From a virus: a DNA stretch of 41,851 nt. A program made the position numbers and the translations under genes. Position 1 is the stretch's first letter. The number at the start of each line of letters is the position of its first letter. Positions 2,775 to 41,851 of the stretch are shown here, in pieces. A model generated the notes under the pieces. That model searched no databases and was not told the DNA's origin. It worked only from the letters and a program-made list of their open reading frames with translations. The stretch lies in IMG/VR virus record IMGVR_UViG_3300010401_000019, positions 1-41,851 of that record. The stretch is one strand, 5' to 3'.

Positions 2775-3011
2775 ATGACGGACGACTTCTGCATCATCCA
2801 TGGATACGAGCACATGCGCTCTCAAATGGGCAATCCGATTCCGTGGTGCGAGGCCTGTGACAACGATCGGGCCCGAAAGCGGATTGTAACCGAGGAGGGC
2901 TGCCCGACATGCGCTGAATTGGCGCGCGGAAGCTTTGGCCCTTCTCACGATCCATCGCCCCGGTGCGAGAGCGGCAAGCGCCCGCATTGCACCTGCGACA
3001 TATGCTTCTGA
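2775..3011 (+). CDS. Cys-rich small protein (78 aa)
   Basis: Three Cys pairs are visible, 'CEAC', 'CPTC' and the C-terminal 'HCTCDICF', together with several His. The start is the ATG of a repeated cassette (AGGGAACATGAC). Probably a small zinc protein of unknown role; it lies directly upstream of the PAPS-reductase-like gene. Confidence 0.6.
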   Translation: MTDDFCIIHGYEHMRSQMGNPIPWCEACDNDRARKRIVTEEGCPTCAELARGSFGPSHDPSPRCESGKRPHCTCDICF

Positions 3012-3030
3012 ACTCAAGGTTAAGGGAAAC

Positions 3031-3798
3031 ATGACTGAACCTCGGGTAGTTTGCAGGTTTTCATGCGGGGCCGCCTCTGCCGTCGCAACGAAATTGACGC
3101 TCAGAAAATATGATCCCGCGCGGGTCGTGATCACCTATAGCGATACACGGTCTGAGCATCCCGACAACAAACGCTTCCTTGGCGATTGCCAGCGCTGGTT
3201 CAGCCACGAGATCATCACTCTCGCCTCAACCGACTATGCTGACACCTGGGATGTTTGGGAAAAGGAACGATTCATCGTTAGCAGGCATGGTGCTCCGTGC
3301 ACGGGGCTTTTGAAGCGTGAACCGACATACAGCTTTGCCCGCTCCGATGACATCTTGGTGTTTGGATATACCGCCGAGGAGCGCGACCGCGCGGAGCAGT
3401 TCCGCAAACAGAACTTCGAAGTAATGTTTGAAACACCACTGATCGAGGCTGGTTTGGGTAAGGCTGATTGCCTAGCCATGATTGAGCGAGCCGGGATCGA
3501 ACTGCCAGCGATGTACAAGCTGGGCTATCAGAACAATAACTGCATCGGCTGCCCGAAAGGCGGGATGGGATACTGGAATAAAATCCGCATCGATTTCCCA
3601 GAGACATTCGAGCGCATGGCCGCATTGCAGCGCAAGCTTGGCAAAGGCTCATCCTTTTGGCGCGAGCGAGACACTGGCATACGCATTAGTTTGGACGATT
3701 TGGCTCCAGATCGCGGCCACCTTCTCACCGAGCCAAATATAGAATGTTCGCTGGCTTGCCATAGTGCCGAAGTCGCGATTGCGGAGGCCGCCGAATGA
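3031..3798 (+). CDS. phage PAPS-reductase/adenine nucleotide alpha-hydrolase-like protein
   Basis: A 255-aa protein of the PP-loop (PAPS reductase / ATP pyrophosphatase) superfamily. The N-terminus 'CRFSCGAASAVATKL' (residues 8-22) is the nucleotide-binding loop, with SCGAAS in place of the usual SGGxxS. 'VVITYSDTRSEHPDN' follows, the strand and acidic residue typical of the fold. The C-terminal half has 'NNNCIGCPKGGMGYW', a CxxC that in relatives binds a metal or Fe-S cluster, then 'IRIDFPETFERM'. Relatives in phages are annotated as phosphoadenosine phosphosulfate reductases but rarely carry the assimilatory residues. Roles in nucleotide or nucleic-acid thiolation or modification are possible and unproven. 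The start sits in a GGGAAACATGAC cassette and the stop overlaps the next ATG. Confidence 0.8.
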   Translation: MTEPRVVCRFSCGAASAVATKLTLRKYDPARVVITYSDTRSEHPDNKRFLGDCQRWFSHEIITLASTDYADTWDVWEKERFIVSRHGAPCTGLLKREPTYSFARSDDILVFGYTAEERDRAEQFRKQNFEVMFETPLIEAGLGKADCLAMIERAGIELPAMYKLGYQNNNCIGCPKGGMGYWNKIRIDFPETFERMAALQRKLGKGSSFWRERDTGIRISLDDLAPDRGHLLTEPNIECSLACHSAEVAIAEAAE

Positions 3799-3909: not shown

Positions 3910-4278
3910 ATGAACGCCGACCGCCGCATGACCCTCAAGCAAGCCGCCCTCGCCTTCTTTGGTGACGTGCGTCATGCCGCTACCTTGCGAGCGGAAATCG
4001 GCCGTGGGAATCTTGCAGCTTCAAAGATTGGTCGGGCATACTGGACGACGTTGACAGCCTTGCATGAGATGGAAGCCAAATGCCGCGTCGAAAGTCAGGC
4101 CCTAAACTCTGGTGGGACAAGAACCGAAAATCCTGGACCATCATCGACGGCCGATCTCGCCATCGCACAGGGTGCGGCGCTGAGGACCTTGAGGGGGCTG
4201 AAGCAGCACTTCGGAGTTACAGCGAAAGAAAGTATCGACCGGCCAAGTCTGAAGCGCCGCCCATTGCCGACATCATAG
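3910..4278 (+). CDS. excisionase-like DNA-binding protein overlapping the integrase
   Basis: The N-terminal half, 'MTLKQAALAFFGDVRHAATL' then 'EIGRGNLAASKIGRAYWTT', has the pattern of a MerR/excisionase-type winged helix: helix, basic recognition segment with 'GRGNL', then a wing with the conserved Tyr/Trp. Position immediately before the integrase is the usual place for Xis. The frame stays open for 199 nt inside the integrase gene, giving a Ser/Thr-rich then helical tail ('AALRTLRGLK'). Starts at 3910 or 3928 are both possible; neither has a strong SD. If the tail is real, the two proteins are encoded in overlapping frames. Confidence 0.7.
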   Translation: MNADRRMTLKQAALAFFGDVRHAATLRAEIGRGNLAASKIGRAYWTTLTALHEMEAKCRVESQALNSGGTRTENPGPSSTADLAIAQGAALRTLRGLKQHFGVTAKESIDRPSLKRRPLPTS

Positions 4279-5075
4279 CAACATATGCCGAGGAGCACGT
4301 GAAGCACCTCGTTAGCGGAAAGCATATCAGTTACGACTTGGAGAAGCTGACAAAATGGTGGGGTACGAAGCGCGTCACGGATATTACTGCCACTACCTGC
4401 AGGGCCTATGCTTCCATGAGGAATGCACCGGTTTGCGCTCGGAGGGAGTTGGGTTTCCTACATGCCTCAATCCGGTATTGGCAGCGAGAGCACGCGCCGA
4501 TGATGGCCGTGCCAACGATCAAGCTACCTCCCAAGCCAGCGCCGCGGCAGGATTTCATGACCAGGGAGCAAGCCGCCATCTTCCTTTGGAAGGCCCGCAG
4601 GACGCCTCATCTGGCAAGGTTCTTTCTATTGGGTTGGTATACCGGAAGCCGACGTAGCGTGATTACGGGTCTGAAATGGTCGATGGTCGATCTTGAAACC
4701 GGGGTGATGCGAAGGAAAGAACGCAATGCCGTCCAAACCAAAAAACGAGCACCGCCTGTCCGATTGGGAAATCGGATACTTGCGCACCTTAAGCGATGGC
4801 ACAAGCTTGATGGTGGAAGAGGTCCAATTGTCCACTTTAGAGGCGTACAGATTCACCGTCCTGTTTCGTCCTGGGAGCGTATCCGGCGGGACGCTGGCCT
4901 TCCTGGATATGTTGTACCGCATGTGCTCCGACACAGCCGCGCAACCCATTTGCTGCGCGCCGGAGTCAGCCCTTGGGAAGTTTCGAACGCCCTCGGAATG
5001 AACATGCAGACTTTGATTTCAACATACGGTCACCACATGCCCGACTGGCAGAAGGATGCAGCCAATGTCCGATGA
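4080..5075 (+). CDS. int: tyrosine-type site-specific integrase
   Basis: A 331-aa tyrosine recombinase that would insert the phage into the host chromosome. The N-terminus 'MPRRKSGPKLWWDKNRKSW' is an arm-binding-type segment. The core-binding SAM-like domain covers about residues 55-160. The catalytic domain shows the first Arg in 'YTGSRRSVITGLKW', the HxxR box in 'HVLRHSRATHLLRAGVSP', and the nucleophile Tyr in 'LISTYGHHMP' near the C-terminus. The length is typical. It is preceded by the overlapping excisionase and followed by a 55-aa gene whose ATG lies 11 nt before the integrase stop. An attP is expected close by but no core could be identified without the host sequence. Confidence 0.93.
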   Translation: MPRRKSGPKLWWDKNRKSWTIIDGRSRHRTGCGAEDLEGAEAALRSYSERKYRPAKSEAPPIADIIATYAEEHVKHLVSGKHISYDLEKLTKWWGTKRVTDITATTCRAYASMRNAPVCARRELGFLHASIRYWQREHAPMMAVPTIKLPPKPAPRQDFMTREQAAIFLWKARRTPHLARFFLLGWYTGSRRSVITGLKWSMVDLETGVMRRKERNAVQTKKRAPPVRLGNRILAHLKRWHKLDGGRGPIVHFRGVQIHRPVSSWERIRRDAGLPGYVVPHVLRHSRATHLLRAGVSPWEVSNALGMNMQTLISTYGHHMPDWQKDAANVR

Positions 5076-20055: not shown

Positions 20056-21710
20056 TATTGAACGACCTTCAGATATTTGCCCTGCCGATTGGGATCAGGC
20101 ACATACCAATTCCCGTCAGGAGCCTTTTTTGCGCCATCCATCGGAGGCTGCGCGGATGCCGTAGTAGTCTTCGGCGCTTCGTTTATCGCCTTGTGGAAGT
20201 CCTTAATTTCACCCTCGGTGAACATCGGGTGCGCCTTGAAGTAGGCCGTCACCTGCTTATCGAAGCCTGCATCTAAGCTGCCATTCTGCTCCTTGTAGTT
20301 CTGCGCCATCTCGGCGATATCGCCCTGACGCTGATACGTCCGCTTCTGGATTTCAACGAGCAGCTTGTTGGCCGGGATCGAGTTTTCCGGAGCCGCCGCG
20401 GCCTGCTTGGCGAGGTTCATTTCCGCAACGCGAATAGGACCGAGCCCCTTAAGAGCGCCAAAGGATGCCAGCACGCCGGCCGCCGTTGCCTTGCGCAAGA
20501 ACTCCTGCGGGACCGCGGCGTCCGGATCGATGCCAGCCGCACTCTTCAGGCGCTTGTAAAGCAGATTGTACTTTTCGCCCGCACCGGAGAAGAAGTTCGG
20601 GTCTTCCATCTGCTTCTGGAGCATTTCCAGCTGCGGAATTTCCTGTTGTGCCTTCACGCCAGCATCGACAAGGGTCTGATACTTCGCGGTACCAGCCTTG
20701 GCTTCTTCAGTCGCGGCGGTTTTCTTGGCCTCGGTCTCGGCCATGAAATCCTGCAGCGTTCCCTTATAGCCCTGTCGCCGCGCGAGGTCATATTCCTTGA
20801 TCGGGCCAGTCGGCGCACTCTGCTCTTGCAGGGCTTTAAGCCGCGTCATGGCCGCTTCCTGCACCGACTTTGGATAAGCTGGGTTGCTTGCAATCGCGGT
20901 ATATGTCGCGATCTGCTTTTGAACTTCAGGGTCAGTCCCGGTCGGAATAGCGCCGCGCGTGGCGATCGCGGAAGGCGCGCCGAACGTGCCCTGGTTCTGC
21001 TGGGGATCAGGCTGCGGCGCGGCCTGCGGAGGCGGCTGAGGCGCTTGCGGCTGAGGCTGTCCTGGCTGCGGAGCGCCTGCCTGCACCACCTGACCGATGC
21101 CGGCGCGCTTAAGCTGCTGGATGGCAGGGACGATCACATTGCGGACGCGCGGGTCATTCAGATCGATCGGAGCCATGGGATCGTCGACGCCGAGTTGGCG
21201 CGCAACGGCGGCACTCGCGGCTCCGAGCTGATCGTTTGGGATACCCTGCGCCGCGACAACGCTCATGACCGTATCCGGCGGCTTTTGCTGAGGTGCAGGT
21301 GATCCGCCCTGTCCTCCCCGCTGCAACGGAGGCGCGACGGTCGTAGATGCATTGCGGTTGCTTGAGGGAGGGCTGACGATCGGAGATGCACCGCCGCCGC
21401 TTTCCATCTGGCCCATCTTGCTAGCGACATCCTGGCCAAGCTTTAGCTGATCCCTCTGAATGCCAAGATTTGAGGCCGCAACGCCCTCGTTCAGTCCGCC
21501 TTTCTCGAACAGCGTTTTCGCCATTGCGGCGAAATCAGGCTGCCCATTGGCATCAGTTGGAACGCCACCGCGGAACGCATCGCGCAATTCGTTTTTGGCA
21601 AACTCATCACGGCCCTTATAGTAACTGTCGAACAGGTTCGAGAGGCCAGAGAAGTTCGCCCGCGAGCTCGCACCAGCGCCACCCGCAATGATTTGGTCGA
21701 TGTCAGCCAT
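20055..21710 (-). CDS. ejection-type virion protein with Pro/Gln-rich linker (551 aa)
   Basis: The N-terminus 'MADIDQIIAGGAGASSRANF' leads to helical segments. A Pro/Gln-rich linker ('GAPQPGQPQPQAPQPPPQAA') sits near residue 220, then a long coiled-coil region to about 500. The C-terminus 'WYVPDPNRQGKYLKVV' forms a small beta-like closing motif. The overall form is typical of injected virion proteins of podoviruses, which have little sequence conservation. No lytic transglycosylase motif was found. Confidence 0.68.
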   Translation of the reverse strand: MADIDQIIAGGAGASSRANFSGLSNLFDSYYKGRDEFAKNELRDAFRGGVPTDANGQPDFAAMAKTLFEKGGLNEGVAASNLGIQRDQLKLGQDVASKMGQMESGGGASPIVSPPSSNRNASTTVAPPLQRGGQGGSPAPQQKPPDTVMSVVAAQGIPNDQLGAASAAVARQLGVDDPMAPIDLNDPRVRNVIVPAIQQLKRAGIGQVVQAGAPQPGQPQPQAPQPPPQAAPQPDPQQNQGTFGAPSAIATRGAIPTGTDPEVQKQIATYTAIASNPAYPKSVQEAAMTRLKALQEQSAPTGPIKEYDLARRQGYKGTLQDFMAETEAKKTAATEEAKAGTAKYQTLVDAGVKAQQEIPQLEMLQKQMEDPNFFSGAGEKYNLLYKRLKSAAGIDPDAAVPQEFLRKATAAGVLASFGALKGLGPIRVAEMNLAKQAAAAPENSIPANKLLVEIQKRTYQRQGDIAEMAQNYKEQNGSLDAGFDKQVTAYFKAHPMFTEGEIKDFHKAINEAPKTTTASAQPPMDGAKKAPDGNWYVPDPNRQGKYLKVVQ

Positions 21711-36516: not shown

Positions 36517-36701
36517 GCTGCGGATTTCCGAGCCTTATTGTCTCGGCGAATACGCTTGTGGAGCACCAGCGATATTTCTCGCTGGAGATGCCCATGATCA
36601 ATGCTCCGCGGCTTGAATTGCCCTCTGGCGGACATCAGACAGGCGTAACGTTCATCAAGGGGCATTCGACGGGCCCGATTGAGCAATTCAATGAGGTTCA
36701 T
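36513..36701 (-). CDS. small basic protein (62 aa)
   Basis: 'MNLIELLNRARRMPLDERYA' and 'ISLVLHKRIRRDNKARKSAA'. Helical with a basic tail; may bind nucleic acid. The ATG overlaps the GcrA-like stop. Confidence 0.55.
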   Translation of the reverse strand: MNLIELLNRARRMPLDERYACLMSARGQFKPRSIDHGHLQREISLVLHKRIRRDNKARKSAA

Positions 36702-37126
36702 ATACCTACCTCCATCAGTGCCGTATTACGGACGGCATCCGAAAGCATGGCGCGAAGCTCGCTTCTGGACATTTCCGGGAGTTTTGGAAGATGGATGCGA
36801 TAGTCGCGCGAGGTCTTGGACGTACCTTTGGCGACGAAGGATGCGCGGATTTGCTTCTTCTCGGCCTTCCGCTCGGCGGATGGCTCCGCTTTCCATCGCT
36901 TCCCCTCGGCCTTCTTCGAAAGGTTGCGTTGTTTTGTTGCGGCTCGCGCTACCGGAGCCGGCCTTTTGTATCCCATGCGATGTGCGCGGCCGATGAGCGA
37001 ACTGCGGGTGTAGTCGGTCCCGAAATTCCGATTGATGTATCCAACCATGTCTCTAAAGCTGCGGTCGCCGCGTGCGATCATTGAGCGCAGAAAATCAGAA
37101 TGTTCGTCGGGCCAGATGATGCTCAA
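36698..37126 (-). CDS. GcrA-like cell-cycle regulator homologue (142 aa)
   Basis: The start is TTG 37126, with AAGGGG 7 nt upstream. 'IIWPDEHSDFLRSMIARGD' then 'YTRSSLIGRAHRMGYKRPAP' correspond to the N-terminal helix-turn-helix of GcrA (W-x-x-E/D...L-x-x-L-x-x-x-G, then S-R-S-x-x-x-G-R-x-H-R-x-G), which binds GANTC-containing DNA and sigma70 in Caulobacter. The rest is Lys/Arg-rich, with a C-terminal helix 'PKLPEMSRSELRAMLSDAVR'. Host GcrA is about 170-180 aa. A phage copy could tie phage transcription to host methylation state, which is inference. Confidence 0.75.
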   Translation of the reverse strand: MSIIWPDEHSDFLRSMIARGDRSFRDMVGYINRNFGTDYTRSSLIGRAHRMGYKRPAPVARAATKQRNLSKKAEGKRWKAEPSAERKAEKKQIRASFVAKGTSKTSRDYRIHLPKLPEMSRSELRAMLSDAVRNTALMEVGI

Positions 37127-38450: not shown

Positions 38451-38663
38451 TCATGCGCGTGCCTCGGCCTTGAAGCCAAACACAGATCCATCCACTTCCC
38501 TTCCAGAGGCCGCCAGCGCCTCACGGATAAGCAAGAATTTGTCGGAGGCGATCTTGCCCCGCTCGCGCCAATTGCTCACAGCGGGCGCGCTGACGCCGGC
38601 CAGAGAGGCCGCTGCGGCGGTCCCTCCCAAAGCTTCAATGACTTCGTCAACGGTGGTCAGCAT
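38451..38663 (-). CDS. Cro/YdaS-like helix-turn-helix regulator (70 aa)
   Basis: 'MLTTVDEVIEALGGTAAAAS' and 'LAGVSAPAVSNWRERGKIAS' then 'DKFLLIREALAASGREVDGS' form a compact Cro/YdaS-type HTH; the recognition helix is APAVSNWR. It is transcribed leftward from a promoter whose -10 box lies only 5 nt before the ATG, so the message appears leaderless. It is followed by the replication and late genes, the position of Cro in lambda. Length is right for Cro. The operator TTCAC-N5-GTGAA lies in its own promoter spacer, so autoregulation is likely. Confidence 0.8.
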   Translation of the reverse strand: MLTTVDEVIEALGGTAAAASLAGVSAPAVSNWRERGKIASDKFLLIREALAASGREVDGSVFGFKAEARA

Positions 38664-38668
38664 GCCCC

Positions 38669-38698
38669 TTGATACTTCACGAAACGTGAAGTTGTCAA
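38669..38698 (-). promoter_or_regulatory. leftward early promoter (PR-like) with operator in its spacer
   Basis: On the minus strand TTGACA (38698-38693, perfect consensus), an 18-nt spacer filled by the operator, and TATCAA (38674-38669) as -10. The start codon of the Cro-like gene begins 5 nt after the -10. Confidence 0.8.
38674..38692. promoter_or_regulatory. operator O1 (19-bp palindrome)
   Basis: ACTTCACGAAACGTGAAGT, with 8-bp perfect arms around AAA. Matches the two other operators in TTCAC-NNAAC-GTGAA. Confidence 0.85.
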
Positions 38699-38709
38699 GG
38701 GCTCACGCA

Positions 38710-39018
38710 ATGGGAATAGTCACAGATTGTGAATTCGGGCCTGATGCCCGGGTCATGAGATCGATCCCGGACATTGCAGACCGACTTATTGCAACGCAAA
38801 AAGCGCTGGGGATTACTCCGGCGGAACTTTCGCGCCAGGCTGACATCCCTGCCAATCAATGGACCCAGTTCACCGATCCGAAGTATAAGCGCCGGATTAC
38901 CCTCGCTGCGGCCTATAAGCTAAAGGATACCTTCGGGATCACCCTCGAATGGATATTCGACGGCGATCGCACCCGCCTTCCCCATGAGATCGCGGTAAAG
39001 CTGCGTAAAGCGGCCTGA
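38710..39018 (+). CDS. XRE-type repressor-like protein (102 aa), CI analogue
   Basis: ATG 38710 with AAGGG 8 nt upstream; ATG 38755 is a later alternative. 'SIPDIADRLIATQKALGITP' and 'AELSRQADIPANQWTQFTDP' form a helix-turn-helix of the Cro/CI class, and 'RITLAAAYKLKDTFGITLEW' then IFDGDRTRLP complete the fold. No C-terminal S24/LexA peptidase domain is present, so RecA-induced self-cleavage is not available. It lies between O1 and the O2/O3 pair, as cI lies between OR and OL in lambda. Role as the lysogenic repressor is inferred from layout. Confidence 0.72.
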   Translation: MGIVTDCEFGPDARVMRSIPDIADRLIATQKALGITPAELSRQADIPANQWTQFTDPKYKRRITLAAAYKLKDTFGITLEWIFDGDRTRLPHEIAVKLRKAA

Positions 39019-39053
39019 CCTAAGCTCCCAGCCCCATTTAATTTTTGGCGAAG

Positions 39054-39068
39054 TTCACAAAACGTGAA
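39054..39068. promoter_or_regulatory. operator O2
   Basis: TTCACAAAACGTGAA, arms TTCAC/GTGAA. Its centre is 31 bp from O3, about three helical turns, so dimers on O2 and O3 could contact each other on one face. Confidence 0.75.
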
Positions 39069-39076
39069 AATTGTGC

Positions 39077-39106
39077 TTGACGACTTCACATAACGTGAAG
39101 TAGGCT
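39077..39106 (+). promoter_or_regulatory. rightward early promoter (PL-like) with operator in its spacer
   Basis: TTGACG (39077-39082), an 18-nt spacer containing O3, then TAGGCT (39101-39106). The register is identical to that of the leftward promoter. It drives the HNH and recombination genes. Confidence 0.65.
39083..39101. promoter_or_regulatory. operator O3 (19-bp palindrome)
   Basis: ACTTCACATAACGTGAAGT. Same outer arms as O1; sits between the -35 and -10 of the rightward promoter. Confidence 0.85.
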
Positions 39107-39130
39107 GCTCTTCACAAACTGGGAGCAGCC
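39103..39130 (+). promoter_or_regulatory. leader hairpin enclosing the SD of the HNH gene
   Basis: GGCTGCTC and GAGCAGCC (8 perfect pairs) with a 12-nt loop. The GGGAG at 39121-39125 is largely in the 3' arm, so folding would lower translation from the GTG at 39136. Confidence 0.55.
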
Positions 39131-39135
39131 TCCAA

Positions 39136-39579
39136 GTGGCCTACGATTGGCAATCTCTTCAAATCATTCCTGAGCCCAATAGCGGCTGCTGGATTTGGCT
39201 GGGGCCGATAAACCAACACGGTTATGGACGCGTGCGCTTGAAGAGCGGCCGCTCGCAAGTAGCTCACCGGGCTTTTTACGAAGCTCATCATGGCATCGTC
39301 GCGCCTATAGGAATGCAGATAGATCATCTTTGCTTCCTTCGGTGCTGTGTAAATCCGGATCATTTGGAAGCTGTTACGCCTGCCGTTAACACGAGGCGCA
39401 TGTTCGTTCGCATTCGCGGAATTGGGAGTGCATCCAACACTCATTGCCTCTACGGCCACGAACTTGACGAAGGCAACATTTGGACTCGCAAAAGTAACGG
39501 CAGACCCACGCAAGTTTGCCGAACGTGCGCCAAACAATACCGAGCCAGATATCGCAATAAGCAAAGGATATCTCAATGA
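39136..39579 (+). CDS. HNH endonuclease, first gene of the rightward operon
   Basis: 147 aa from a GTG start (39136). 'NSGCWIWLGPINQHGYGRVR' then 'QVAHRAFYEAHHGIVAPIGM' and 'QIDHLCFLRCCVNPDHLEAV' are the HNH_3 core, with the D-H and N-P-x-H-L sites. A second Cys group, 'HCLYGHELDEGNIWTRKSNG' and 'QVCRTCAKQYRARYRNK', can bind zinc. Such genes are common as mobile endonucleases; its place as the first gene after the early promoter is unusual and may give it early expression. Overlaps the next gene by ATGA. Confidence 0.88.
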   Translation: MAYDWQSLQIIPEPNSGCWIWLGPINQHGYGRVRLKSGRSQVAHRAFYEAHHGIVAPIGMQIDHLCFLRCCVNPDHLEAVTPAVNTRRMFVRIRGIGSASNTHCLYGHELDEGNIWTRKSNGRPTQVCRTCAKQYRARYRNKQRISQ

Positions 39580-39814: not shown

Positions 39815-39979
39815 ATGCTCACTCCGCAGCAAGAAGCCGACCAACTTCTCAAACACTGGCAACTCCTCTGGCCCCTTCCGGCTGCAGAGCGGATCAAGCT
39901 CATCGACGAGATCACCAAGGACTATCGGTACGAACACGAGTTGCGCGTTGTGACGCATGAAATGGAGTCGATGCAATGA
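39815..39979 (+). CDS. small helical protein (54 aa)
   Basis: 'MLTPQQEADQLLKHWQLLWP' and 'AERIKLIDEITKDYRYEHEL'. The ATG is 5 nt after the preceding stop and the TGA overlaps the ERF start (ATGA). Not assigned to a family. Confidence 0.55.
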   Translation: MLTPQQEADQLLKHWQLLWPLPAAERIKLIDEITKDYRYEHELRVVTHEMESMQ

Positions 39980-40737
39980 CCCTACCCGCTGAAAACGTTC
40001 ACCAGATCGAAGGTCCTGTTTCGCACCTTCCCGCGCCGCAGTCCGAGACTTCCGCCGTGCTCCACATGATCGAGCGCGCGGCCCGAGACCCCGCGGTCGA
40101 TATCAATAAGCTACAGCAGTTGATGGAAATGCGCGAGCGCATCGAAGCGCGCACATCCGAGGCGGATTTTGACCGCGCTCTCACCGAAGCCCAAGCAGGA
40201 ATGGGGCGCGTTCGGACCGACAGCAATAATCCGCAGACCAAGAGCCGATACGCCTCTTATGGCGCCCTGGATGCCGCCATGCGCCCTGTCTACACCAGCA
40301 ACGGCTTCGCGCTGAGCTTCAACACGGAAAACCCGGCATCGGAAGTCGTCCGCGTCATTTGCCGTGTTTCCCATCAGCGCGGACATTCCCGCACCTATCA
40401 GATCGATATGCCGGCCGATGGCAAGGGTGCCAAGGGCGGCGATGTGATGACCAAGACGCATGCGACGGGATCGGCCGTATCCTACGGCATGCGTTACCTG
40501 CTCAAGATGATCTTCAACATCGCCGTGAGCGACAAGGACGATGACGGCAATAGCGCCGGCAGTGGCGACAAGATCAGCCAGGATCAAGCCACTGAATTGA
40601 TCGCGCTTTGCGATGAAGTCGGCGCCGACAAGCGGGCCTTCTGCGAATACTTCGGGATCGAAGGGATTCCGATGCTTGCCGCAAAGGACTTCAACCGCGC
40701 CAAGTCAGCACTCAACAAAAAGCGGGGACAGAAATGA
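39976..40737 (+). CDS. erf: ERF-family single-strand annealing protein
   Basis: 253 aa. 'EADFDRALTEAQAGMGRVRT' and 'KSRYASYGALDAAMRPVYTS' are the ERF superfamily core (F-x-x-A-L-x-x-A-Q...S-x-Y-A-x-x-x-x-x-x-x-x-x-x-x-P-x). 'KTHATGSAVSYGMRYLLKMI' is the conserved A-x-G-S-A-x-x-Y-x-x-R-Y-x-L. The C-terminus 'ISQDQATELIALCDEVGADK' is a helical tail domain. ERF proteins anneal complementary single strands and circularise or repair incoming DNA; the gene lies two genes upstream of the YqaJ exonuclease that would supply them. Confidence 0.92.
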   Translation: MTLPAENVHQIEGPVSHLPAPQSETSAVLHMIERAARDPAVDINKLQQLMEMRERIEARTSEADFDRALTEAQAGMGRVRTDSNNPQTKSRYASYGALDAAMRPVYTSNGFALSFNTENPASEVVRVICRVSHQRGHSRTYQIDMPADGKGAKGGDVMTKTHATGSAVSYGMRYLLKMIFNIAVSDKDDDGNSAGSGDKISQDQATELIALCDEVGADKRAFCEYFGIEGIPMLAAKDFNRAKSALNKKRGQK

Positions 40738-41324
40738 TCCTCTTTTTTGATACCGAGACGACGGGATTTTTTGATGATCGGCTTCCGGTCGATCATGACG
40801 CACAGCCCTACCTAGTTCAACTCGCCGCCCAATTGTGCGACAAAAACGGAGCCTCTGTCGCGGGGTTTTCCTTCATCGTTTGCTATCCGGGAGTTGAGAT
40901 TCCGGAGCGCGCGGCAGCGGTGCATGGCATCACGACTGAAAAGGCCATTCAATTCGGCATCGCGCCGGAATTTGCGCTTGCCGCATTCACCCATCTGTAT
41001 CAGCGCGCCGATGTGATCTGCGCCCATAACATCAAATTTGACAAAGGCATCATGGAGGTCGCGATAGCGCGGCATTACGGCAAGACGATGCCACTACGCA
41101 AGCCATTGTTCTGCACGATGGAGGCCGCTTCGCCCATCGTCAATCTGCCTCCCACCGAAAAGATGCGTGCGGCTGGCTTTGATAAGCCGAAGCCTCCGAA
41201 GCTGGAAGAATGCGTCCGACATTTCTTCAATGAAGAACTGGATGGCGCTCACGATGCGATGGTCGATCTGTCGGCATGCCGTCGCGTTTATTTGCATCTC
41301 AAATCTATCGAGGTCGCGGCATGA
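40734..41324 (+). CDS. DnaQ-like 3'-5' exonuclease (DEDDh)
   Basis: 196 aa. Exo I is 'MILFFDTETTGFFDDRLPVD' (D-x-E), Exo II 'VICAHNIKFDKGIMEVAIA' (N-x-x-F-D), and Exo III 'LDGAHDAMVDLSACRRVYL' (H-D-A-x-x-D). This is the proofreading/RNase T class. In this operon it likely trims ends for recombination. The start overlaps the ERF stop and the end overlaps the YqaJ gene, both by ATGA. Confidence 0.88.
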   Translation: MILFFDTETTGFFDDRLPVDHDAQPYLVQLAAQLCDKNGASVAGFSFIVCYPGVEIPERAAAVHGITTEKAIQFGIAPEFALAAFTHLYQRADVICAHNIKFDKGIMEVAIARHYGKTMPLRKPLFCTMEAASPIVNLPPTEKMRAAGFDKPKPPKLEECVRHFFNEELDGAHDAMVDLSACRRVYLHLKSIEVAA

Positions 41325-41851
41325 CCGAAGAAATCATTCAGGGATCTGACGAGTGGAAGGCCTTGCGCCTTGGCAAGGTGACGGCCTCCCGCGTCTCCGA
41401 CGTGACTGCTAAGACCAAGACCGGATATAGCGCCTCCCGCGCCAACTACATGGCGCAGCTCATCGCCGAGCGGCTGACGGGCACGGTTGCGGAAGCCTAC
41501 ACCAACGCCGCCATGCAGCACGGCACGGAGACCGAGCCGGAAGCGCGAGCGGCTTACTCCTTCTACCAGGGCGCCTCAGTAAAGGAGGTGGCGTTCGTAC
41601 CGCACCCGAAGATCGATCAGGCCGGCTGCTCCCCCGATGGCTTGGTCGGCGACGACGGCTTGGTCGAGATCAAGTGCCCGAATACGGCGGGGCATTTGGA
41701 AACCCTTCTCGGCCAAGCCGTGCCCGCTAAGTACGAAGCGCAGATGCAATTCCAGATGGCCTGCACGGGCCGGAAGTGGTGTGACTTCGCCTCTTACGAT
41801 CCGCGCATGCCCGAGCATATGCGACTGTTTGTCAAGCGCATGCCGCGAGAC
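41321..41851 (+). CDS. YqaJ/lambda-type recombination exonuclease, N-terminal part (runs past the window; ends at base 225)
   Basis: 'QGSDEWKALRLGKVTASRV' begins the YqaJ viral recombinase domain. 'MQHGTETEPEARAAYSFYQG' (G-x-x-x-E/x-E) and 'AGCSPDGLVGDDGLVEIKCP' (D then E-x-K) hold the metal-binding residues of the PD-(D/E)XK nuclease. It degrades the 5' strand from double-stranded ends, leaving 3' tails for ERF. Joined to 1-225 the protein is 210 aa, normal for the family. The start overlaps the upstream exonuclease stop. Confidence 0.92.
   Translation, partial: MTEEIIQGSDEWKALRLGKVTASRVSDVTAKTKTGYSASRANYMAQLIAERLTGTVAEAYTNAAMQHGTETEPEARAAYSFYQGASVKEVAFVPHPKIDQAGCSPDGLVGDDGLVEIKCPNTAGHLETLLGQAVPAKYEAQMQFQMACTGRKWCDFASYDPRMPEHMRLFVKRMPRD
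41729..41851. repeat. 123-bp direct repeat, right copy
   Basis: Identical to bases 1-123. Removing one copy gives a circular sequence of 41,728 bp with the exonuclease gene intact. Confidence 0.95.

Follow-up and report, generated by a model that had tools for sequence, protein, structure and literature searches.

The window analysed here is the whole 41,851-nucleotide stretch of viral DNA at positions 1 to 41,851 of the IMG/VR virus record IMGVR_UViG_3300010401_000019. Near its right end, two short genes diverge, one on the minus strand (38451-38663, 70 aa) and one on the plus strand (38755-39018, 87 aa). The leftward promoter, TTGACA-18-TATCAA, lies between them on the minus strand at 38669-38698 and reads TTGACA-ACTTCACGTTTCGTGAAG-TATCAA from 38698 to 38669. 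The rightward early promoter, TTGACG-18-TAGGCT, follows the right gene on the plus strand at 39077-39106 and reads TTGACG-ACTTCACATAACGTGAAG-TAGGCT. A sequence-only reading of this DNA had described both promoters, each with the 18 bases ACTTCAC-N4-CGTGAAG between its hexamers, and we found that description accurate at every base. The two promoter/operator blocks of 26 bp are exact, operators overlap both early promoters in the window, and the hexamers of the leftward promoter as well as the rightward promoter are kept in relatives.

The pattern TTGACNACTTCACNNNNCGTGAAGTA matches exactly twice in the window, at the two promoters, and has no match in 100 dinucleotide shuffles of the window, even with two mismatches allowed. 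With at most one mismatch, TTCAC-N5-GTGAA occurs at six sites in the window compared to 1.3 expected, a number reached in none of 100 shuffles, and four of the six sites fall within 38676-39099. A simple consensus scanner reported neither promoter, which could be taken to mean that promoter and operator coincide by chance. However, the shuffles gave no matches and the arrangement is independently conserved across dozens of loci, making chance an exceedingly improbable explanation. A perfect TTCAC-N5-GTGAA core is also found at 20208-20222 in the structural gene region, where it is probably fortuitous.

A scan with the sequence pattern placed operator O1 (ACTTCACGAAACGTGAAGT, 38674-38692) within the leftward promoter and operator O3 (ACTTCACATAACGTGAAGT, 39083-39101) within the rightward promoter. 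O2 (AGTTCACAAAACGTGAAAA, 39052-39070), which lacks the outer palindromic bases, is located 31 bp from O3 when measured from 39054-39068 to 39085-39099, the spacing that had been claimed from the sequence; a spacing of 30-32 bp is conserved in relatives. Two further sites, together with an inverted repeat described below, had been missed in that reading. O4 (GTCACAGATTGTGAA, 38719-38733) lies 43 bp from O1 and matches the word at 9 of 10 positions as GTCAC-N5-GTGAA, and its offset is identical in three relatives (L020, L021 and L045). On weaker evidence, a degenerate site (CTCACGCAATGGGAA on the plus strand, 38702-38716) lies 26 bp from O1; its GTGAA half, of the TTCAC type, is kept in relatives. 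The spacings are therefore 43 (26+17) bp on the O1 side and 31 bp on the O3 side, and some relatives have a third distal operator at a spacing of 22 bp.

The left gene encodes a 70-aa protein and is the first gene of the leftward transcript. Its predicted model is confident, and the nine best matches in the PDB are all Cro or Cro-derived proteins, including Xfaso1, N15 and P22 Cro. The Pfam profiles P22_Cro and YdaS matched the protein below their cut-offs. At an E value of 0.001, the P22_Cro profile matches 18 of 24 relatives, with the window protein below the curated cut-off. The model thus supports a Cro-like protein with a Cro fold, and conserved start geometry is further evidence for the Cro-like gene. 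In the window, 5 nt separate the -10 hexamer from the cro start codon, and in the pattern-matched loci this distance is about 5 nt, so that cro mRNA is predicted to be leaderless. Leaderless cro and cI mRNAs are known from experiment in phage PY54 (PMC4488713), and leaderless mRNAs have been mapped in Sinorhizobium (PMC3616915). At the other end of the gene, the stop codon overlaps the ATG of the next open reading frame (ATGA, 38451-38454), and relatives often end likewise, which suggests translational coupling.

The 87-aa product of the right gene is predicted by AlphaFold to be a single compact helical domain (pLDDT 91) and lacks a C-terminal oligomerisation/self-cleavage domain. Foldseek returned weak matches (E about 0.1) to the DNA-binding domains of P22 c2 and 434 and to restriction controller proteins. 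According to its model, this protein is a bare P22-c2-like helix-turn-helix domain, and we refer to it as CI-like. The RstR-type minimal repressor model NF041951 matches 15 of 24 relatives at an E value of 0.001 and leaves the window protein unmatched. In most loci, 88 bp separate the start codons of the CI-like and cro genes, and no convincing -35 was found for a CI promoter. In five relatives (L018, L040, L045, L081 and L083), the distal operators lie farther from the CI-like gene, across gaps of 190-515 nt. Some of these gaps hold small open reading frames at the position of lambda rex, such as a 93-aa lipoprotein-like frame in L018, and these are candidates for genes expressed in the lysogen.

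As the sequence-only reading had claimed, the repressor gene lies between O1 and the O2/O3 pair and the Cro-like gene is first on the left. The recombination genes are also on the right as described, but the rightward transcript opens with an HNH endonuclease (39136-39579, plus strand, GTG start; PHROG 826 at E 1e-37, Pfam HNH_3) and they come only after it. They comprise an Erf-like single-strand annealing protein (39976-40737), an exonuclease of the RNase_T family (40734-41324) and a YqaJ-type recombination exonuclease (41321-41851) that is cut by the window end, all on the plus strand. Left of O1 are genes for a DnaD-like helicase loader and then terminase, portal (phrog_156), major head protein and head closure Hc3. 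One arm thus leads to replication and capsid genes and the other to recombination genes. A tyrosine integrase (4080-5075, plus) is encoded on the same strand as the rightward genes. The gene order suggests that the record is circularly permuted; if so, the recombination arm reaches the integrase, which is the lambda PL order. Very likely, the window belongs to a temperate phage, one with P22-like capsid genes, and this region is its immunity switch, wired in the manner of lambda. The leftward transcript also includes a GcrA-like gene (36698-37126, minus) whose product scores slightly over the Pfam cut-off, and a gene of the phosphoadenosine phosphosulfate reductase family (2935-3798, plus) is located close to the integrase.

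Relatives were collected with a pattern fixed from the first of them, TTGAC-N3-TTCAC-N5-GTGAA-N-W-W-N9-ATG. It matched 18 viral stretches, and in 17 of these the ATG starts such a Cro protein. In genomes, a scan with a DNA pattern gave six matches, about the handful estimated by chance, and a real switch only in L062, a locus from an uncultured Sulfitobacter genome. Searching viral sequences with the CI-like protein alone as query found no relatives, and none was confirmed when genomes were scanned with the first Cro alignment; alignments of the relatives themselves found more. A hand-made consensus Cro served only as a search query, and the results rest on natural loci. Loci were counted after removal of Cro proteins more than 75% identical, which left 53 loci with an operator at the cro promoter. 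More distant versions occur in two cultured Bradyrhizobium phages, ppBeUSDA76-1 and ppBdUSDA122-1. These phages and the Sulfitobacter locus are the reason that the host of the window phage, itself uncultured, is probably an alphaproteobacterium.

The layout is kept in about 50 relatives while the operator word differs: TTCAC, TTCTC, TCCAC, TACAC, TACAG, ATAAC, TTCAA, TTGGC and TTTAC are all found. In 30 of the 53 loci, the two distal operators are separated by 30-32 bp, regardless of the word. To relate the words to the proteins, we calculated mutual information between every alignment column of each protein and each word position and compared the values to shuffles. For Cro, the most informative columns are P27 (word position 2), N31 (position 4) and R35 (position 5), all of which lie within the recognition helix (residues 26-35). 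For the CI-like protein, they are N34 followed closely by Q38 (position 2), Q38 (position 4) and R46 (position 5), which belong to helix 33-40 and the loop after it. Word position 1 showed no clear co-variation with columns of either protein. The residues change in step with the words. Nine loci with TAC words (L131, L035, L034, L041, L101, L121, L161, L049 and L135) carry glutamine at Cro position 27, which is absent from that position in TTCAC loci, and in TTCTC and TTGGC loci position 31 is threonine rather than asparagine. Hall, Lefevre and Cordes reportedly proposed such residue-word rules for Cro in 2005 (cited in PMC4488713). Shared ancestry inflates the z-scores of co-variation, yet columns outside the helices, which have the same ancestry, rank lower.

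Because columns in or next to the recognition helix rank first in both proteins, the Cro-like and CI-like proteins probably read one shared word. An alternative is that only the Cro-like protein reads TTCAC, repressing its own promoter and the second one, and that the CI-like protein binds elsewhere or acts differently. The co-variation signals are indeed stronger for Cro, and L022/L023, L027 and L032 keep a Cro-like gene and operator-like sites with no CI-like gene beside them, so Cro alone must suffice in those loci. However, this alternative leaves unexplained why N34, Q38 and R46 of the CI-like protein are its top columns for word positions 2, 4 and 5 and why the CI-like gene has operators on both sides, and we regard it as unlikely. 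The comparison of operator words that the sequence-only reading had proposed shows a constant layout, a changing word and two proteins that co-vary with it. Its assignment of the elements as PR, PL, CI and Cro in a lambda-like switch gains support from the predicted Cro fold, the word co-variation, the gene order and the conserved layout.

Based on these observations we propose how the switch may work, with binding, promoter activity and the identity of the protein that holds lysogeny being what we infer from sequence. Both proteins would read TTCAC-N5-GTGAA, present in about four good copies and one degenerate copy, with Cro made first, on the leftward transcript toward replication and capsid genes, and the minimal CI-like protein made from the opposite strand. 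In the lysogen, CI-like dimers on O1 and on O3/O2 would block both early promoters. O1 and O3 lie exactly between the -35 and -10 hexamers, so a bound dimer at either site should exclude RNA polymerase. Repression of the rightward promoter is probably reinforced by O2, which is three helical turns away from O3. O4 and the degenerate site fall in the region expected to contain the CI promoter, and their probable role is to tune CI synthesis. During lytic growth, Cro would accumulate from its probably leaderless RNA and act at O4 and the degenerate site to repress CI; at a later stage it would damp the two early promoters as well. Because the CI-like protein has no C-terminal domain, RecA-driven cleavage is unlikely to be the route of induction. 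Lysogens of the cultured Bradyrhizobium phages produce phage spontaneously (PMC10127595), which is compatible with induction that does not involve RecA and is not evidence for it.

The rightward promoter carries a further element, recognised from the sequence and from comparison with relatives. An inverted repeat spans 39103-39130 on the plus strand, with arms at 39103-39112 and 39121-39130. The 5' arm overlaps the end of the -10 hexamer and the discriminator, and the 3' arm contains the Shine-Dalgarno sequence GGGAG (39121-39125) of the first gene; a pyrimidine-rich stretch directly after the -10 is complementary to that sequence. The repeat is found in 23 of the 24 relatives analysed, the window included and L033 being the exception; in L026 it is present and the start-codon assignment is doubtful. 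It is also visible by eye in the more distant loci L058, L060, L062, L131 and L135, which have other words, and inspection of L118, L120 and L134 found no simple inverted repeat. The complementarity to the Shine-Dalgarno sequence is not coincidental, as arm swapping shows. Arms from the same locus form duplexes with a mean of -10.7 kcal/mol, compared to -8.0 when arms are swapped between loci, and none of 100,000 permutations reached the observed value. Several arm pairs are retained through G-U pairing.

Transcription is predicted to start at a pyrimidine-purine step 5-9 nt after the -10, near 39114 in the window, which would leave most of the 5' arm outside the promoter's own RNA. The Shine-Dalgarno sequence has a predicted exposure of 0.18 in read-through RNA, compared to 0.34 when RNA starts at the promoter, a moderate difference. 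Exposure is higher in promoter-initiated RNA in 19 of 24 loci (Wilcoxon p = 7e-4) and reversed or absent in the other five. The CI-like gene points toward the rightward promoter, and in 16 of 23 loci its stop codon and the -35 are separated by 4-72 nt. No intrinsic terminator was found in these CI-to-promoter gaps in 22 of 23 loci. We therefore propose, with less certainty than for the operators, that the repeat prevents translation of the early genes from lysogenic CI transcripts that read through: in read-through RNA from the CI gene it would hide the Shine-Dalgarno sequence, and initiation at the rightward promoter would cut it in half.

Two other explanations for the repeat were weighed. 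It could form a hairpin at the 5' end of the rightward transcript that acts as a stabiliser or protein-binding site, or it could be a binding site in DNA, rather than a silencer. The start site is a predicted one, and some leaders (L018 and L030) have longer loops with inner stems, which would fit such a role. But RNA with a normal start would not include the 5' arm, which sets in where the -10 ends; the arms vary in sequence with pairing kept partly by G-U, unlike a DNA word bound by protein; and the 3' arm holds the Shine-Dalgarno sequence. We consider this explanation less likely. The first gene in the window is an HNH gene, and homing endonucleases of the T4 family carry such hairpins (PMC2988022), so the repeat could instead be a property of that gene and unconnected to the switch. 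We reject this origin as highly improbable, since the repeat occurs in 23 of 24 relatives, whose first genes are unrelated to one another. The first genes behind the rightward promoter form 24 separate sequence clusters in 24 loci, indicating that the repeat belongs to the promoter and not to any gene. Judging by these 24 unrelated genes, the position behind the operator-bearing promoter is a hotspot of gene exchange. Even L024 and L025, whose remaining locus is nearly identical, have unrelated first genes.

The two early transcripts may be insulated at translation in different ways, Cro through a leaderless start fused to its promoter and the early operon through the anti-Shine-Dalgarno arm that its promoter has in the discriminator, with the result that only RNA from repressor-controlled promoters is translated. 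We give this proposal an even chance of being correct. If it is true, the lysogenic transcript can continue past the promoter with no terminator, and whichever gene follows the promoter is exchangeable. The operator-promoter-hairpin unit would then be a compact insulated promoter whose genes are left untranslated in read-through RNA.

A related device is known from T4 (PMC2988022). There, upstream RNA of I-TevI, segB, soc and e forms a hairpin that covers the ribosome site, and RNA initiated at the genes' own promoters is missing the 5' arm of that hairpin. The geometry predicted for the window is equivalent, and here the arms co-vary. T4 uses such hairpins for late genes in early and middle RNA, whereas the proposed hairpin of the window lies in a prophage immunity region and, unlike those of T4, goes with the promoter while the genes behind it are unrelated. 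Comparable devices occur in IS10 and IS50. A search of the open-access literature found no description of a promoter-embedded anti-Shine-Dalgarno arm in a phage immunity region.

As a lambda-like switch, the locus is an expected kind of object. It resembles lambda and P22 in its divergent repressor and Cro genes, its common operators over both early promoters, the Cro fold, the division of replication from recombination and, given circular permutation, integrase between the two arms, the P22-like capsid genes and Erf. What it adds is a minimal repressor, a fixed 31-bp spacing, a word exchange tracked by both proteins and a promoter-embedded anti-Shine-Dalgarno arm. The CI-like repressor is a bare helix-turn-helix domain without the C-terminal domain that provides cooperativity and the RecA response in lambda CI. 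In lambda, OR and OL have three sites each at a spacing of about 24 bp, in contrast to 43 (26+17), 31 and sometimes 22 bp here. Unlike in lambda and P22, cro is predicted to be leaderless, and the early promoter discriminator holds the anti-Shine-Dalgarno arm. The switch of the telomere phages PY54 and N15 is also lambda-like; PY54 has leaderless cro and cI mRNAs (PMC4488713), and N15 Cro is among the best structural matches of the window protein. PY54 Cro has one binding site and does not repress itself, whereas an operator sits inside the cro promoter of the window.

The relatives form a series of natural variants of a lambda-like switch that share a fixed architecture and differ in operator word, which makes it possible to test the rules that let two proteins follow one changing word. 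The series also helps to annotate little-known repressors in environmental temperate phages that are probably alphaproteobacterial. The Bradyrhizobium phages have a homologous CI-like/Cro-like pair with operators on both sides of the CI-like gene, TTCAC in ppBeUSDA76-1 and TACAC in ppBdUSDA122-1. Their CI-like proteins are just 29-33% identical to that of the window, and their switch proteins are annotated merely as helix-turn-helix or hypothetical proteins.
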